64,000 bases of DNA from NCBI GenBank assembly GCA_020846775.1, contig JADLDG010000023.1:1-64000 (forward strand), in the 5' to 3' direction. Below the pieces are notes generated by a model that saw nothing but the letters and a program-made list of their open reading frames with translations, was not told where the DNA came from and did not search any database. The stretch comes from Nitrospirota bacterium (GTDB lineage: Bacteria > Nitrospirota > 9FT-COMBO-42-15 > HDB-SIOI813). The position numbers and the translations under genes are program-made. This document shows, piece by piece, positions 22,997 through 56,888 of the stretch (positions within the stretch are counted from its first letter, which is position 1; each line of letters begins with the position of its first letter).

Positions 22997-24013
22997 ATGA
23001 GGATTGCATTAGACGCTATGGGTGGAGACAGCTCTCCGGCTGCAGAAGTTGAGGGTGCAGTCTTGGCAGCAAGAGAGTACAATACAGAGATAGTACTCGT
23101 TGGCGACGAAAAACTACTCAGGTGTGAACTTGAAAAGCATCGTACTACAGGTCTGCCGATAACTATCTCGCATGCTTCACAACGGGTTGAAATGCATGAG
23201 AGTCCGGTCTCTGTCCTTCGAAAGAAAAAAGATTCATCCATTATTATTGCTACAAAGCTGGTTCGTGACGAAAAGGCTTCAGCAGTCGTCAGCGCCGGCC
23301 ATAGCGGCGCCACTATGGCTGCATCCCTGCTGATATTGGGGCCTGTAAAGGGAGTTGAGAGACCTGCAATTGCCACTATCCTGCCTACACTCGAAGGTGT
23401 TGCTATAATGCTTGATGTTGGAGCTAACGTCGATTGTAAACCCAAACATCTTTTTCAGTTTGCTATTATGGGGCATGCATATGCAGTAAAGATGCTTAAA
23501 AAGGAAAACCCGAGGATAGGATTATTAAGCATTGGAGAAGAAGATACCAAGGGAAACATGCTTACCAAGGAGACATTCGTGTATCTTAAAAATAGTCCAC
23601 TTAATTTTATAGGTAATGTTGAAGGAAAGGATGTTTACAGAGGAAGAGCAGATGTTATAGTATGTGATGGATTTATTGGTAACGTAGCGCTCAAAATCAG
23701 TGAAGCAGTAGCTGACACAATGGGAAAAATGTTGTCGCGTGAAATAAAAAAATCACCTGCAGGAAAGATCGGGTATCTCATGCTAAAGAAGGCATTCGCG
23801 TCTTTTAAGAAGAAGGTTGATTATGCAGAGTATGGGGGCGCTCCATTGCTTGGTGTTAACGGGGTCTGCATAATATGTCATGGCAGGTCCTCTCCAAAGG
23901 CAATTAAGAATGCAATAGGAATGTCAGTTGGGTTATCAGATGTTCATACTATCGAGTATCTTCAGAAAGATGTATCAGAGTTAATGACATATTTTAAGGA
24001 GGATGTGAATTAG
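22997..24013 (+). CDS. plsX: Phosphate acyltransferase PlsX
   Basis: 338 residues with MRIALDAMGGDSSPAAEVEG, AVVSAGHSGATMAASLLILG and NVEGKDVYRGRADVIVCDGF, all PlsX motifs. Converts acyl-ACP to acyl-phosphate for glycerol-3-phosphate acylation by PlsY, whose gene is at about 49.9 kb in this window. Peripheral membrane enzyme. fabH follows one base after the stop. Confidence 0.98.
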   Translation: MRIALDAMGGDSSPAAEVEGAVLAAREYNTEIVLVGDEKLLRCELEKHRTTGLPITISHASQRVEMHESPVSVLRKKKDSSIIIATKLVRDEKASAVVSAGHSGATMAASLLILGPVKGVERPAIATILPTLEGVAIMLDVGANVDCKPKHLFQFAIMGHAYAVKMLKKENPRIGLLSIGEEDTKGNMLTKETFVYLKNSPLNFIGNVEGKDVYRGRADVIVCDGFIGNVALKISEAVADTMGKMLSREIKKSPAGKIGYLMLKKAFASFKKKVDYAEYGGAPLLGVNGVCIICHGRSSPKAIKNAIGMSVGLSDVHTIEYLQKDVSELMTYFKEDVN

Positions 24014-46267: not shown

Positions 46268-47455
46268 TTAATAAATGTCATCGGGTGTCAATGCTGCATT
46301 GTCTTTACCCCTGCTGTATAATCTATAGTCAGATGACGAGTTGTCATCAGGATATTTTTCATATACAAACTGATTATGCCATTCATCCGAAATGATGGAG
46401 TCTCCAACGTATTTATCAGAATATAGGGTTGAAAGAGAGTCAGGAATATTTCCGTTGACCAGATAGTAATAACTGATTGCCCTTTTTAGTCGGTTCAGAT
46501 TAGCGGCTGTACGATACTGCCTGAGGGTATCTGATATCTCCTGCACTTTACCCAGACCCACCATTTCACCGGCTGGTAATAATAAAAGAATAAAGCTGAT
46601 TACGAAGATAAGAATTGCCATCTGAAATGCGTACTTCAGCCTGATCCTGTACTCTGCTTTTTCTTTATGTACCTCTGCAGATGTCTCTACTGGTTCAGTA
46701 TTACCTTGCCCTGATCCTGAATTTATCTGTTTATTTGACAGGGATGATGGTGTTATAAAACCTGACATCATCAGAGTCAGCATGATCCTGAAAACAGGGA
46801 ATTTCCCAAGTTGAGAGACTGTTAAAATATCAGAGATGTCACGATTACCGTCTACCAGATTATAAATTGATAATTCATCAGGACTTAATTTTGAAAATAG
46901 CTGCTCCACTTCACTTCCTTTGTCAGTTTGTGAAAATATGACATTAGCAGCAGGTATCTTGCTCTCAATGTAACCCCATTCATCAACCATTCTCGAGCCT
47001 TCCATAAGAATAAAATCAGTTTGTACCGGTATCTGAAATTCCCTGTCATAATCTATTTCACATGCGTTAAACTTATAGTGCCCGTCTCTCCATCTCAACA
47101 CATGAAAAATTACATCCATCAGCTGCTGCTGCAAGGCATCTTTTACATCATCTGTGGATATTAGACCGGAAGAAACGAATAATTTACCTATTTTATCCTT
47201 TGACACCTCCTGCATGCGCAGGGTATTCTCGACATTCCGTTCTGTCAGTTTGCCGGAATTAACAAGTATCTCTCCGAGACGCTTGGTTTCCCCCCCGAAT
47301 ATGGATGTGGCGAACACAAGCTGACCATTGTCAAAATACAAAGATGTTGATTCATTTTCATGTGAGATGGAGACAACTCCGCTCTTTTTTTGCATGGAGA
47401 TGAGTTGCAGTATCTCTGCCAGGCCGAACTCTTTTATAGAACCTTCTAAGGACAT
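46268..47455 (-). CDS. DUF4388 (PATAN-type) domain fused to membrane-anchored GspG-like domain
   Basis: 395 residues. Residues 1-150 match DUF4388: SLEGSIKEFGLAEILQLISM, KSGVVSISHENESTSLYFDN and GHYKFN. A helical segment follows, then a single membrane helix (about 277-294) and a C-terminal domain whose pattern (RLKRAISYYYLVNGNIPDSL, DEWHNQFVYEKYP, DYRLYSRGKDN) resembles the C-terminal part of type II secretion major pseudopilin GspG. DUF4388/PATAN domains occur in signalling and gliding/pilus regulators. It follows the plsY-TPR fusion by 40 bases and is probably co-transcribed with it. Role unknown. Confidence 0.7.
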   Translation of the reverse strand: MSLEGSIKEFGLAEILQLISMQKKSGVVSISHENESTSLYFDNGQLVFATSIFGGETKRLGEILVNSGKLTERNVENTLRMQEVSKDKIGKLFVSSGLISTDDVKDALQQQLMDVIFHVLRWRDGHYKFNACEIDYDREFQIPVQTDFILMEGSRMVDEWGYIESKIPAANVIFSQTDKGSEVEQLFSKLSPDELSIYNLVDGNRDISDILTVSQLGKFPVFRIMLTLMMSGFITPSSLSNKQINSGSGQGNTEPVETSAEVHKEKAEYRIRLKYAFQMAILIFVISFILLLLPAGEMVGLGKVQEISDTLRQYRTAANLNRLKRAISYYYLVNGNIPDSLSTLYSDKYVGDSIISDEWHNQFVYEKYPDDNSSSDYRLYSRGKDNAALTPDDIY

Positions 47456-47495: not shown

Positions 47496-49904
47496 TCATT
47501 GCCTGAGACTGGACCTGAATGGACGTATTCCGGAAAAATACAGTAACAAATATGATAATGTTATCAATGATATCCATAGGATAAAAGACCGCACCGGCTG
47601 ATAGTATGCTGTCTCCCAGGTATTATAAGCCCTCCATACAATTAGCCCGGAGATTCCTGCGCCGAAAATCATACTCAAAAAGATGCCTTTGATAATATGT
47701 CCACTGAGCATATGCCATAGGCCGGGTATAAGAAAATATATTTGCATTCTTCTTAACGCCGGAGTACCACTTTGCTGCTCTCCTCGCTTGCATGTCTTAC
47801 AAATTCCCCCAAAGATTCGCGAGCCGGTGCATCTGCCGCACACACTCCTGTTACAATCAGGGCAATAATATGCCATAGGTGTTTTTGGTTTGATATAAGA
47901 AAGTACCGACAGTATTATCCCCAGGCTGATCCCAAGAAATGGAAACCTTTCGGCGGGTATTCTTATTAAAGCCTGAAGTATGTCGTTGACTAATATTGCA
48001 GTCTCGTCTGAAGTTGTTAACGCAACATGCCATAAGTCACGCATAGAAATCGGATATTCAATAACACGGTATCCATCCCCCTTAGCTGACAGGGATGTAA
48101 ATCGTTCAACGTCATGAATGCTGATTTTCTTGGCTGTTTCATAACTTTTCCCGGCCTCGGAAAAAAGAAGTTTTTCTCTGTATGCCTGACTAAGATTATA
48201 AAAAGGGAGAGCAGACTCAGGCGATATCTTAATAGTATCCATATAATATGCAATTGCCTTATCAAAATTCCCTCTGTAGAAATTGATGTTGCCTATAGAG
48301 TTTAGAGCATTTATTCTGATATTCCTGAGGCTGGAGCCAGTAAGTTTTTCAAAATAAGTCAAAGAGTCCTCAGTCCTATCATCTTTATTGGACAGGTATG
48401 CTATGGAAAAAGTTATGTAATTGTTGTCTGGTTCCTTTCGCTCTTGATCCTTTAAAATCTCTATAAGGCCAGGCTCGCCATAACCCCGTTCTGCGGCAAT
48501 AAGACCCTGAAGTGTCACATTATTATGGGCTGTCAAATACAATGTACTGTATTGAAGCACTCCTGGCAATAACAGCAGTAAGATGATGCAGCATGTCGCA
48601 AATATCTTGTCATTTCTACTCATATATATCCATGAAATTACTATCCACATTAATACAAACCAGGCAATTCCGAATAGAAGGGAAACAAAGGCTATTATTA
48701 TAAAGAATATTACATTGAAAGGACTATTTAAAAATCCGGATGTTATCTCTTTAAATGTATGAAGGAAGAGAGGAATAAAACGGCAGCAGAGAGAAACAGT
48801 GAATACCATGATCGAAATACTTAAAGCAAGGAGAATTACTGTGTAAAGCCTTCCAACGTAGTTAAACAATGTCCAGAAGTCGCTTATTGACGACCTGACT
48901 CCTGCCAGATATTCATTTACTATTTCTCCTTTGCCTGCGCCTGACATGCTGCGAAGTGATTTTGCAGCCAGATAATGAGATGGTGCGTAATCCGGCGAGA
49001 TCTCCATGGCTATTTTGCTGAGACGATCAGCCTTTTCAGGCATACCGTCTTCAAGAGCCAGGTATCCCTCACGGACAAGCAGGGCGGATATAACGTCTAT
49101 TCTGTTAATCCCAAGCTTGTATTTGGTTTTCACAATTTCATTAATAATATTGTCAGCAGCCTTGAGATCTCCCGACGCTACAGCGCTCTGTCTCTCATTC
49201 CATAACCTTTCCAATTCTACCGGCATCAGCCTGTCATAAGCAACCGCAGTTTCTGCGAAAGCGGCGTTTGATGAGACAAGAATTATGAGTAGCAGGATCA
49301 TTGGCTTGCTCCGCCCTGCTCCTATCTTTCCTTCCTGGCCGGCAAGCAGTCTCCTGATGTTCTCAATATGTCTGAAATAAAGAAGTGCAGAGATGATTAT
49401 AGAAAAGATAGAAAACGAAATGCTTCTTTCCCCTATTGAAGTGACAACGGGGAGGATGCCAAATGATATTAGGGCTGCGAGCGATGAATACTTCCAAATA
49501 AACATGCCCGCTATCCATATACTCATTGTAATAACACCGATATACGGCCATAATGCGAAAAGGACACCGAGGCTGGTTGCAACACCCTTGCCCCCCCTGA
49601 ATTTAAGGAATATAGTATAATTATGACCAAGTATTGCTGCTAATGCGATTGCAAGTGTCCAGTTATCAAGCCCCCATAATGATTTTGCGATTAATACGGG
49701 TACTGCTCCCTTAAGGGCATCCAGCAATAATGTCAAGGCGCCTCCGAACTTCCCTGTCGTTCTTAATACATTTGTTGCTCCGATGTTGCCACTTCCCTGC
49801 TTCCTGATATCTCCGGCCCCCATAATCGTTGAAATGATCATCCCGAATGGAATAGACCCGGCAAAGTAGCTTATGAAGACCATGAGCATCTTGATAACAG
49901 TCAT
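47496..49904 (-). CDS. plsY: PlsY acyltransferase fused to membrane TPR / zinc-ribbon protein
   Basis: 802 residues from ATG 49904, which overlaps the pgsA stop as ATGA and gives a normal PlsY N-terminus. Residues 1-201 are PlsY, glycerol-3-phosphate acyltransferase of the inner membrane (IRKQGSGNIGATNVLRTTGK, HNYTIFLKFRGGKGVATSLG). Residues 202 onward start MILLLIILVSSNAAFAETAV, a signal-peptide-like segment now internal, followed by a helical region, membrane helices, a TPR section (NIRINALNSIGNINFYRGNF), a six-cysteine ribbon (C681, C684, C689, C692, C702, C705) and two or more membrane helices. GGAG lies seven bases before the internal ATG at 49301, so a separate protein could also be made. 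Confidence 0.8.
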   Translation of the reverse strand: MTVIKMLMVFISYFAGSIPFGMIISTIMGAGDIRKQGSGNIGATNVLRTTGKFGGALTLLLDALKGAVPVLIAKSLWGLDNWTLAIALAAILGHNYTIFLKFRGGKGVATSLGVLFALWPYIGVITMSIWIAGMFIWKYSSLAALISFGILPVVTSIGERSISFSIFSIIISALLYFRHIENIRRLLAGQEGKIGAGRSKPMILLLIILVSSNAAFAETAVAYDRLMPVELERLWNERQSAVASGDLKAADNIINEIVKTKYKLGINRIDVISALLVREGYLALEDGMPEKADRLSKIAMEISPDYAPSHYLAAKSLRSMSGAGKGEIVNEYLAGVRSSISDFWTLFNYVGRLYTVILLALSISIMVFTVSLCCRFIPLFLHTFKEITSGFLNSPFNVIFFIIIAFVSLLFGIAWFVLMWIVISWIYMSRNDKIFATCCIILLLLLPGVLQYSTLYLTAHNNVTLQGLIAAERGYGEPGLIEILKDQERKEPDNNYITFSIAYLSNKDDRTEDSLTYFEKLTGSSLRNIRINALNSIGNINFYRGNFDKAIAYYMDTIKISPESALPFYNLSQAYREKLLFSEAGKSYETAKKISIHDVERFTSLSAKGDGYRVIEYPISMRDLWHVALTTSDETAILVNDILQALIRIPAERFPFLGISLGIILSVLSYIKPKTPMAYYCPDCNRSVCGRCTGSRIFGGICKTCKRGEQQSGTPALRRMQIYFLIPGLWHMLSGHIIKGIFLSMIFGAGISGLIVWRAYNTWETAYYQPVRSFILWISLITLSYLLLYFSGIRPFRSSLRQ

Positions 49905-50452
49905 GTCTTTTTCACACCTTTCCAGAACCTGAATATATAATCGCCTGCTGATATTAATGAGAGGATGGCTGAATACCATAGTATTACAGATCCAAAAGTA
50001 TGTAAATCAATAACCCTTGAACTGAAGAAAACAGGATAGTTAAGAATAAGAAACACTATTGCAATAATTTGCACTAAAGTTTTTATCTTTCCCATTTCTT
50101 TAGCGGCTATTACGATTCCGATTGATGACGCTATAGCCCTCAGACCTGTTATGGCGACATCTCTGCCTACTATCACTATAGCGAGCCATGAAGGGACTCT
50201 GTGAAATTCCACGAGCATGATTAAAGCAGATAATACAAGGAGCTTGTCAGCAACAGGGTCAAGTAGTTTTCCTGACAATGTTACCTGTCCATATTTCCGG
50301 GCAATGTAGCCGTCAATCCAGTCTGTCAGGGATGCAAGGATAAAGATAATTGCAGCCCAGTTAGATCTTGTTATTGATGGAACTGCAAATACTATTATAA
50401 AAAATGGTATTAATAATATTCTTAGAATGGTAAGGAAATTTGGCAGATTCAA
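49901..50452 (-). CDS. pgsA: CDP-diacylglycerol-glycerol-3-phosphate 3-phosphatidyltransferase
   Basis: 183 residues, integral membrane. The CDP-alcohol phosphatidyltransferase motif is complete (DGYIARKYGQVTLSGKLLDP followed by VADK). Makes phosphatidylglycerol-phosphate. Linked to kdsC upstream and plsY downstream by ATGA overlaps, so PG and acyl-phosphate pathways are made from one message. Confidence 0.95.
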   Translation of the reverse strand: MNLPNFLTILRILLIPFFIIVFAVPSITRSNWAAIIFILASLTDWIDGYIARKYGQVTLSGKLLDPVADKLLVLSALIMLVEFHRVPSWLAIVIVGRDVAITGLRAIASSIGIVIAAKEMGKIKTLVQIIAIVFLILNYPVFFSSRVIDLHTFGSVILWYSAILSLISAGDYIFRFWKGVKKT

Positions 50453-50955
50453 ATTCTACCCTTCGATTTAAGAATGAAATCTGTAACCTCTCGTACTGCC
50501 CCGCCTCCCCCCATTTTATCTGATATCATATCTACCGCCTCTCTGACCTCCCTCACTGCATCAGCAGCCGTTGCAGAAAATCCGACAATGCTAAGCAGGG
50601 GGAGATCAATGAGGTCGTCGCCCATAAATGCAACCTGCTCATCTGCAAGGTTGTATTTCCCGGCTATTTGTTTATAAACTGAAACCTTATCAGTTATGCC
50701 CTGATATACTTCAGTAATGTTGAGTTCCTTAGCCCTGTATTCTACAGATCTGGAACTTCTTCCGGAAATTATTCCAACGCCTATACCCGATTTTTTCAGG
50801 AGATAGATTCCATATCCGTCATGAATATGAAATGTCTTGAGCTCATTACCGTAACTATCTATAAAAATCCTGCCATCAGTAAGGATTCCGTCAACATCAA
50901 GCAGGAGGAATTCAATCATGCCGGCCTTATCTGTCAGTGATTTAAACTCCGGCAC
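50449..50955 (-). CDS. kdsC: 3-deoxy-D-manno-octulosonate-8-phosphate phosphatase
   Basis: 168 residues. HAD-family, nucleophile Asp in FLLLDVDGILTDGRIFID, then IISGRSSRSVEYRAKEL and GDDLIDLPLL. Hydrolyses Kdo-8-phosphate to Kdo. GTG 50955 is used here; ATG 50919 with AAGG upstream gives a shorter form. Lies between kdsD and pgsA with almost no gaps. Confidence 0.93.
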   Translation of the reverse strand: MPEFKSLTDKAGMIEFLLLDVDGILTDGRIFIDSYGNELKTFHIHDGYGIYLLKKSGIGVGIISGRSSRSVEYRAKELNITEVYQGITDKVSVYKQIAGKYNLADEQVAFMGDDLIDLPLLSIVGFSATAADAVREVREAVDMISDKMGGGGAVREVTDFILKSKGRI

Positions 50956-50957
50956 TT

Positions 50958-51932
50958 TTATGCGATTCCCTTCTTTAAGAGGTCATGAAGATGGACTATA
51001 CCTGCTACTGTTGCATCCTCATTTAAAATGACAAGTGAAGTTATTGAATATGTCTCCATTATCTGAAATGCTGATACTGCAAGAGCGTCCCGTTTAATTA
51101 CTTTTGGGTTTTCCGTGGCTGCCTCACCGGCCGTAAGTTTAAATATGTCATGTTCCTGACCTGCTTCACGTTCAAGCAATCTTCGCAGATCGCCGTCTGT
51201 TATAATCCCGAAAAGCCTGTCTTTATCATCGAGAACCGTCGTGACCCCTAACTTCTTTGAGGTCATTTCAAAGAATACATCTTTCATCTGACTGTTTTTG
51301 TAAACGACAGGTATATCCTTACCCGTATGCATCAGGTCTTCTACATGCAGAAGAAGCCGCCTCCCGAGCGCCCCGCCCGGGTGAAATAACGCGAAATCCT
51401 CCTTCCTGAAGTTACGTTTTTCGAGGAGGGCAACAGCAATCGCGTCTCCCATGGCGAGCGCAGCCGTAGTGCTTGCTGTCGGTACTATATTCATGGGACA
51501 TGCCTCTTCCTTTATGCTGACATCCAGTACCACATCACTTATCCTGGAAAGGGTCGAATCCATCTTACCTGTCAGACAGATTATCCGGAGATTTATTTTT
51601 TTAAAGACTGGCAATAAAGCAAGGAGTTCATCTGTCTCTCCACTGTTGGATATCGCCATTATTGTGTCATCAGGCATGATCATGCCGATATCTCCATGTA
51701 TCCCTTCGGCAGGATGCAGGAAAAATGCAGGTGTCCCTGTACTTGCAAGGGTTGCAGCAATCTTCCTGCCGATTAACCCTGACTTTCCCATTCCTGTAAC
51801 AACCACCCTCCCCTTGCAGTGAAAAAGCAGGGAGATTGCATCAACAAAGCTTTGGTCAAGCCTCAACCTTAGAGTGTCAATGGCCCTTGCTTCAACATCA
51901 AGAACCCTGCGGCCCGTTTCAATCTCATTCAT
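50958..51932 (-). CDS. kdsD: D-arabinose-5-phosphate isomerase
   Basis: 324 residues: SIS sugar-isomerase domain (VVTGMGKSGLIGRKIAATLA, SNSGETDELLALLP) and a C-terminal pair of CBS domains (LGVTTVLDDKDRLFGIITDG). Converts ribulose-5-phosphate to arabinose-5-phosphate, the first step of Kdo synthesis. The full length with CBS domains is the KdsD/KpsF type. Confidence 0.96.
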   Translation of the reverse strand: MNEIETGRRVLDVEARAIDTLRLRLDQSFVDAISLLFHCKGRVVVTGMGKSGLIGRKIAATLASTGTPAFFLHPAEGIHGDIGMIMPDDTIMAISNSGETDELLALLPVFKKINLRIICLTGKMDSTLSRISDVVLDVSIKEEACPMNIVPTASTTAALAMGDAIAVALLEKRNFRKEDFALFHPGGALGRRLLLHVEDLMHTGKDIPVVYKNSQMKDVFFEMTSKKLGVTTVLDDKDRLFGIITDGDLRRLLEREAGQEHDIFKLTAGEAATENPKVIKRDALAVSAFQIMETYSITSLVILNEDATVAGIVHLHDLLKKGIA

Positions 51933-51992
51933 ACTAAAATCCCTTCAAAATAGTCTTTTCGGCTACATGTCATATCTAAACAGAAATACCGG

Positions 51993-55169
<3,177 letters not shown>

Positions 55170-55188
55170 ACGAGAATGCACTCCTCAA

Positions 55189-55294
55189 GTCCCCCCTTAC
55201 CCCCCCTTTTCAAAAGGGGGGTACATTATTCCCTCATTAAAAAGGAAGGGTAATTAATTTCCCCCTTTGAAAAAGGGGGATTAAGGGGGATTTT
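55189..55294. repeat. MITE-like inverted repeat between hldA and kdsB
   Basis: Two imperfect copies of about 33 bases in opposite orientation, the left arm about 55191-55221 and the right arm about 55261-55294, each with an internal hairpin of C-runs and G-runs around TTTTCAAAA or TTTGAAAAA. About 40 AT-rich bases lie between. The right arm reaches into hldA and gives its last codons and TAA stop. Elements rich in CCCCCTTT/AAAGGGGG are common dispersed repeats in several bacterial phyla; the family here is unnamed. It does not interrupt any enzyme domain. Confidence 0.8.
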
Positions 55295-56261
55295 CAGTCA
55301 AAGCCGCTATCAGCTGTTCCTGGTGCACCGTTGCCGTACCAACAATACCTACCACTATACCACCGGCATAGTTTGCAAGTAGTGCCGCATCCGTTAGCGA
55401 GGCCCCTGCAGCGACAGACAAGGCAAGTGTGCTCACAACTGTATCTCCGGCCCCTGTAACGTCATATACCTCTCTTGCAAAAGCAGGTATATGAGTTGCA
55501 TCATGGCCTCTTTGAAAGAGACTCATGCCATGCTCACTTCGTGTTATCAGGATAGCCTCTGCATTTGATTGATTAAGAAGTATATTTCCGGCCTTTAAAA
55601 GGGTTTCATCGTCGGAGATAGACAGCCCTGATGCAATAGATGCCTCAGAGGTGTTGGGCGTTATAACCGTTGCCCCCGTGTAAAAGTCAAAATGCTTGAG
55701 TTTGGGGTCTACTATCACACATAGATTGTTCTCAGCAGCCAGCTGAAGGATGTTCTTTACCAGCCTGCTTGTAATTACTCCCTTGGCATAATCAGAAATA
55801 ATGACAACTTTAATATCGTTTATATGTGTTCTAATATAATCAAATATCAAATCCTGAGAGTGCAGGGATATTTCTCCCCTGCTTTCATGGTCAAACCTGA
55901 CTACATGCTGACTGTGAGCTATGACCCTGGTCTTCTTAGAAGATGGACGACCTTCCTCAACGATGATTCCATCTGTGCAAACACCATCTGATTTAAGTCT
56001 GTTACTAATCCACCGCCCCATATCGTCACTGCCGATAACTCCGCATATCCTGACCTTTCCTCCAAGAGATAATATATTACTTGCAACATTCCCAGCTCCG
56101 CCGAGCAGATAACTTTCACTCTGGACATCAACGATAGGTACCGGCGCCTCCGGCGAAATACGCTCTACTTTTCCCCATACATAATGATCAGCGATAATAT
56201 CACCTACAACAAGTACAGTTGCGTTATTAAATTTGTTGATGTATCCCGATAACCTGTTCAT
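55281..56261 (-). CDS. hldA: D-glycero-beta-D-manno-heptose-7-phosphate kinase (HldE N-terminal type)
   Basis: 326 residues of the PfkB/ribokinase fold; the nucleotidyltransferase half of fused HldE is absent, so this is the split HldA/RfaE1 form. Motifs LVVGDIIADHYVWGKVERIS, LLGGAGNVASNILSLGG and the catalytic DVTGAGDTVVSTLALSV. Phosphorylates heptose-7-phosphate for ADP-heptose in LPS core. The stop codon is in the repeat element; lepB is immediately upstream. Confidence 0.92.
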   Translation of the reverse strand: MNRLSGYINKFNNATVLVVGDIIADHYVWGKVERISPEAPVPIVDVQSESYLLGGAGNVASNILSLGGKVRICGVIGSDDMGRWISNRLKSDGVCTDGIIVEEGRPSSKKTRVIAHSQHVVRFDHESRGEISLHSQDLIFDYIRTHINDIKVVIISDYAKGVITSRLVKNILQLAAENNLCVIVDPKLKHFDFYTGATVITPNTSEASIASGLSISDDETLLKAGNILLNQSNAEAILITRSEHGMSLFQRGHDATHIPAFAREVYDVTGAGDTVVSTLALSVAAGASLTDAALLANYAGGIVVGIVGTATVHQEQLIAALTENPP

Positions 56262-56888
56262 TTATTTTATTCTCATCCCTATCCTCCCCCACCTTACCCA
56301 GCTGTCTTCACCATCCCATGACCAGTAAATAATGAACGCCTTTCCCCTGATCTTGTTTAATTTCACAAATCCCCAGTAACGGCTGTCAAGGCTGAAATCC
56401 CTGTTGTCTCCCATGACGAAATAAGAATCTTCCGGAACGACCACAGGCCCGAAATTGTCTCTGGGCTGGATGGTCCCGGGGTATAGCATTGGATCGCTAT
56501 GTTCTGCAAATTGCTCGGCAGCGAATTTACCATTTACGTATACCTTTTTGTCTTTTACCTCTATGCTATCGCCAGGTTTTCCGACGACGCGCTTGATAAA
56601 ATCCTTTTTTTCATCTTCAGGGAACTTAAAAACGATAATGTCTCCATAGTCAGGTTTGTGAAAAGGTATCAGTACCCTGTCTGTAAATGGTATCTTTATC
56701 CCGTAGATGAATTTATTCACCAGGATGTGGTCGCCAATTTGAAGCGTAGGGATCATGGAACCTGATGGTATCTTAAATGCCTGAACAATAAATGCCTTAA
56801 TAATAAGGGCCATAATTACGGCAATCAGGATAGACTCTATATATTCTCTTACTATGTGTTTTTTCTTTTTTGTAATTGTATTTTCCAT
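56262..56888 (-). CDS. lepB: Signal peptidase I
   Basis: 208 residues, one N-terminal membrane helix (about 17-36). Catalytic Ser44 in KIPSGSMIPTLQIGDHI and Lys99 in FIKRVVGKPGDSIEV form the Ser/Lys dyad; GDNRDFSLDSRYWGFV is box E. Cleaves Sec signal peptides at the periplasmic face. Five bases downstream of lepA; hldA begins directly after its stop. Confidence 0.97.
   Translation of the reverse strand: MENTITKKKKHIVREYIESILIAVIMALIIKAFIVQAFKIPSGSMIPTLQIGDHILVNKFIYGIKIPFTDRVLIPFHKPDYGDIIVFKFPEDEKKDFIKRVVGKPGDSIEVKDKKVYVNGKFAAEQFAEHSDPMLYPGTIQPRDNFGPVVVPEDSYFVMGDNRDFSLDSRYWGFVKLNKIRGKAFIIYWSWDGEDSWVRWGRIGMRIK

Follow-up and report, generated by a model that had tools for sequence, protein, structure and literature searches.

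In the present study, we found that a single minus-strand frame of the window (the whole stretch of 64,000 nucleotides of Nitrospirota DNA that was analysed) joins a complete PlsY to a TPR/zinc membrane protein, and that relatives of the window genome in two families carry the same in-frame fusion. The frame likely encodes a membrane polyprotein, which signal peptidase would cut after residue 217 to give PlsY and a mature TPR protein; this reading was drawn from sequence comparison. We also lean towards a wider form of it, in which the only PlsY of these organisms, probably an essential one, would be one of two products of a precursor cut by signal peptidase I, the other being the TPR/zinc protein; the two would be made in a fixed 1:1 ratio and would depend on the peptidase, and the fusion would have had at least two origins in the Nitrospirota. 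No description of a PlsY fusion was found in the open papers searched.

The fused frame and its two halves

Translation of the window gave 802 codons without a stop from position 49904 down to 47496 on the minus strand (Table 1). The first-pass annotation had described a stop-free run from PlsY into a second protein, and this was correct; it had placed the end of the PlsY part at residue 201, which is too far, as the homology stops near residues 195-198. PlsY is the acyl-phosphate:glycerol-3-phosphate acyltransferase (structures 5XJ5-5XJ9), with seven membrane helices, and its long functional loops lie on the cytoplasmic side (PMC5700162). The PlsY equivalog model TIGR00023 matched residues 1-195 over its full length with 169.4 bits (cut-off, 137.2), and Pfam PF02660 matched the same moiety at 1e-49. 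In addition, alignment to the solved Aquifex enzyme showed the conserved motifs GSGNIGATN, FxGGKGVATS and RHxxNI, and the predicted fold of the moiety agreed with solved PlsY 5xj7 at a TM of 0.91 on the target length and an rmsd of 1.5 A. The homology to the seven-TM domain is complete and is followed by a cationic tail. In domain, motifs and fold, the window's fusion is like known PlsY, but known PlsY ends at about residue 195-200, whereas this chain goes on for 600 residues more.

No family genome with the fusion, including the window genome (G000), which is 99.6% complete, has a PF02660 gene besides the fused copy; PlsB was not found in G000 by a search in which the E. coli control was positive. 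Therefore, a functional PlsY must come from the fused frame, where it is the sole and probably essential copy, with an activity predicted from its sequence. The gene for PlsX, the maker of the acyl-phosphate that PlsY uses as substrate, is present; it lies in the same window at 22997-24013 (+), far from plsY.

The second half of the chain (residues 218-802) consists, in order, of a helical N-terminal domain, a TM cluster, the TPR region, a TM segment, a Cys cluster and two TM segments. It had been called a TPR and zinc-ribbon protein, of which the TPR and six conserved Cys could be confirmed; no zinc-ribbon model matched, and only sub-threshold B-box hits were obtained. For the TPR region, PF07719 scored 27.7 bits against a cut-off of 27, with one clear repeat, the others being visible only in the predicted model. 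The PDB and Foldseek matches of this part were generic TPR superhelices and indicated no function, and none of the curated models searched describes the TPR/zinc protein as a family. It represents an undescribed family of the Nitrospirota; a GTDB-wide search gave, beyond generic TPR hits, only Nitrospirota, and the family is likely restricted to this phylum. Its separate homologues bear ordinary N-terminal signal peptides. Judged by hydropathy and charge (positive-inside pattern), the TPR would face the periplasm, with the Cys cluster on the cytoplasmic side.

Table 1. Coordinates of the plsY-TPR/zinc fusion, its parts and selected neighbours in the window
Feature	Position	Strand	Basis or remark
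Fused ORF plsY-TPR/zinc, 802 aa	47496..49904	(-)	ATG 49904 start overlaps pgsA stop as ATGA
PlsY moiety, residues 1-195, complete	49320..49904	(-)	Profile match and predicted fold
Joint, residues 196-217: cationic PlsY tail and internal signal-peptide-like segment, ...MILLLIILVSSNAAFA	49254..49319	(-)	
Predicted signal peptidase I cut after residue 217 (AFA/ET)	49253..49256	(-)	Pattern in 9/9 fusions; putative cleavage
Peptide spanning the joint of the window's fusion, ..AAFAETAVAYDR			
Residual internal start: GGAG, 7-base spacer, ATG 49301	49299..49312	(-)	
Mature TPR/zinc membrane protein (predicted), residues 218-802	47499..49253	(-)	
TPR region, residues about 478-608	48081..48473	(-)	Pfam match and predicted model
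Putative zinc site: six invariant Cys, CxxC x3, residues 681-705	47790..47864	(-)	
pgsA, upstream neighbour	49901..50452	(-)	
kdsC, conserved operon member	50449..50955	(-)	
DUF4388 protein with T2SSG-like C-terminus, downstream neighbour	46268..47455	(-)	
lepB, signal peptidase I, candidate processing enzyme	56262..56888	(-)	Same strand and gene run

Fused and separate genes in the Nitrospirota

The window's family (f1) was represented by 10 genomes, and the locus was present in 8 of them, seven of which have the fusion (G000, G001, G002, G004, G006, G007 and G009). The fused orthologues have open frames of 766-838 codons in G001, G002, G006, G007 and G009, and the frame of G004 is open to the contig end. 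Protein identity among the fusions is 66-68% within a genus and about 46-52% across genera. A second fused family, f15, is represented by G045 and G193, and no further one besides f1 was seen among the surveyed stretches. A genuine in-frame fusion, one of the explanations offered in the first-pass annotation, is thus borne out by the PlsY orthologues of six other f1 genomes and of f15. Frame length had also pointed to fusions in G232, G314, G118, G370, G010, G158, G174 and G298, where PlsY turned out to lie in another frame. G021, G029 and G044 looked fused at first, but a stop was found between the two genes.

The only f1 locus with two genes is that of G008 (L060/L141), where the overlap is exactly ATGA; this is probably a re-split of the fusion, but as it was seen in a single genome it may be an assembly indel. 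In a tree of PlsY and the TPR protein, made by a quick method, the fusions of f1 and f15 lie far apart, and G008 falls inside the fused clade beside G004 (99*). The simplest history consistent with this tree would have three changes, namely one fusion in f1, one in f15 and a re-split in G008; several fusions inside f1 would be a costlier alternative.

A search of 396 Nitrospirota genomes found the TPR/zinc protein in 127, and gene order was surveyed in 80 stretches from 79 genomes. In 76 of these 79 genomes, plsY directly precedes the TPR/zinc gene on the same strand, and pgsA lies upstream in each of the 77 stretches long enough to show it; the order kdsC-pgsA-plsY-TPR/zinc-DUF4388 is nearly fixed in the surveyed Nitrospirota. 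The TPR/zinc protein belongs to a conserved envelope-synthesis operon, and since it stands, together with its DUF4388 partner, beside pgsA-plsY throughout the phylum, it is probably involved in envelope synthesis. Where a relative's sequence extends far enough, the DUF4388/T2SSG-like gene nearly always follows the TPR/zinc gene.

The C-terminal part also exists alone, as a gene of its own in 68 separate pairs and in a family without plsY. The separate Nitrospirota pair has the same two proteins, order and operon as the fusion, but it consists of two genes, mostly with a 4-base ATGA overlap (exactly so in 37/68), whereas the fusion is one frame. Such a 4-base overlap is the standard arrangement for translational coupling. 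In the family that lacks plsY (f7; G024, G032 and G015, loci L084, L086 and L090), pgsA is followed directly by the TPR/zinc gene, and no PF02660 match was obtained anywhere in the three genomes, in which PlsX is present.

The joint between the two halves

The signal-peptide-like segment MILLLIILVSSNAAFA, which had been reported to begin at ATG 49301, is present in the window sequence and starts at residue 202. A strict signal peptidase site, [AVS]x[AG], follows the joint segment in 9/9 fusions, compared with 23/107 other hydrophobic segments (Fisher p = 3.7e-6, which is overstated, as the rows are two related clades). The two f15 joints lay outside the positional range of the rule and were reassigned to the joints; before that, the counts were 7/7 and 25/109. 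Among the nine fusions, position -1 is A (8) or G (1), position -2 is F, L or Y (9) and position -3 is A (5), V (3) or S (1). The hydrophobic core before the site is short and ends mostly in residues of the S/N/G/P type. Among separate TPR genes, 43 of 68 pass the same rule, which thus errs on the strict side in recognising genuine signal peptides. Furthermore, the site persists in G045/G193 and G007/G009, which lack an internal start and whose joints have otherwise diverged. This is the strongest point, because a plain membrane anchor has no reason to keep such a site. The motif is short, and the nine fusions, from two clades, do not count as nine independent draws; the pattern suggests that the segment at the joint acts as a signal peptide and not as a new membrane helix. 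In the AlphaFold (AF2) model of the fusion, made with 26 sequences, the mean pLDDT was 84 and both flanks were confident, while residues 195-224 fell below 50; such a dip is expected for a signal peptide and equally for any linker.

The protein might instead stay uncut and bifunctional, its old signal peptide serving as a permanent eighth TM helix between PlsY and a TPR/zinc scaffold in the periplasm. We regard this as unlikely. It would agree with the maintenance of the fusion over several genera, with the six fusions that need a single chain (see below) and with the strict phylum-wide adjacency of the two genes, which suggests a functional link. However, the short hydrophobic core, the turn residue and the perfect -3/-1 pattern in 9/9, kept even without an internal start, argue against a permanent helix, as do the renewed split of G008 inside the fused clade and the retention of the TPR protein in f7 without a detectable PlsY. 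Since the f7 genomes lack plsY and G008 is split, a permanent physical tie to PlsY is dispensable, and the scaffold reading is not favoured. The link between phosphatidic-acid synthesis and a periplasmic scaffold that had been raised from the sequence of the window is weakened by the same observations.

At the joints of G004, G007, G009 and G045 there is no ATG, GTG or TTG, and in two more fusions no usable start was found, the TTGs of G002 being only in the hydrophobic core or the cleavage motif and the GTG of G193 only in the cleavage motif. The joint of G004, with a motif different from the script's anchor, was read directly from the sequence. These six fusions therefore need one continuous chain. 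An in-frame ATG is left at the joint in G000, G001 and G006, where extra internal initiation is possible and could preserve the signal peptide. Dual coding would mean that every ribosome that finishes plsY makes the fusion, and that the TPR protein is also made from ATG 49301 and exported normally; we consider this quite improbable. The GGAG seven bases ahead of ATG 49301 is indeed present in the window, and G001 and G006 also have ATGs at the joint; but the GGAG-ATG start is not conserved, being absent in the sister genome G002 and in five other fusions (G004, G007, G009, G045 and G193), and because PlsY ends in no stop, the fusion would be made regardless of an internal start. Thus, the stop-less overlap with two products that was proposed earlier may survive in the three genomes with an ATG, and it is not the conserved state. 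Substitutions at the joint were lowest at second codon positions in 5/5 pairs and highest at third positions in 4/5, a pattern that fits a constrained reading frame. Finally, the loss of a stop through a sequencing or assembly error, conceivable in a genome assembled in 136 contigs and named as one option in the first-pass annotation, has virtually no probability left and is refuted: six further f1 genomes carry the same fusion at protein identities of 46-67%, and so does a second family.

Proposed processing of the precursor

For the polyprotein that we favour, the following course is proposed. In the ancestor, plsY and the TPR/zinc gene would have been adjacent and overlapping, and in the ancestor of f1 the two frames would have become continuous. 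The C-terminus of PlsY is expected to face the cytoplasm. The ribosome would make PlsY with its seven TM helices and cytoplasmic end, and would then read on through what was once the signal peptide of the TPR protein. The n-region of this internal signal peptide may be supplied by the PlsY tail with its positive charges; the hydrophobic segment would therefore insert inside-to-outside, and the next domain would be carried to the periplasm. Signal peptidase I would cut after residue 217, so that PlsY would keep a short additional helix at its C-terminus and a separate mature TPR/zinc membrane protein would be released, 1:1 with PlsY.

The closest known precursor of this kind is FbcH of Bradyrhizobium japonicum, in which cytochrome b and c1 are separated by signal peptidase. 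As in FbcH, the frame of a polytopic membrane protein runs on into an internal signal peptide and then a membrane protein that faces the periplasm; the difference is that FbcH consists of other proteins and belongs to respiration, whereas the window's fusion belongs to lipid synthesis and its cleavage is only predicted. To our knowledge, few chromosomal polyproteins of bacteria are separated by signal peptidase, and the well-known one is respiratory. If our reading is true, the fusion would be a second kind of such polyprotein, with two separate origins and an essential lipid enzyme at its core, and an overlapping gene pair could become one frame yet still give two proteins. In the genus of G009 and G007 (L062, L063), about 40 residues of the N-terminal domain of the TPR protein are deleted just after the predicted cleavage site.

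The gene for the candidate processing enzyme, lepB, lies 6 kb upstream of the fusion on the same strand, and this proximity is probably just the common lepA-lepB neighbourhood. A co-directional run at 49901-56888 (-) contains lepB, a pfkB-type kinase, a kdsB-like cytidylyltransferase, pyrG, kdsA-like, kdsD, kdsC and pgsA, after which plsY-TPR follows; it unites Kdo and phospholipid synthesis with signal peptidase I.
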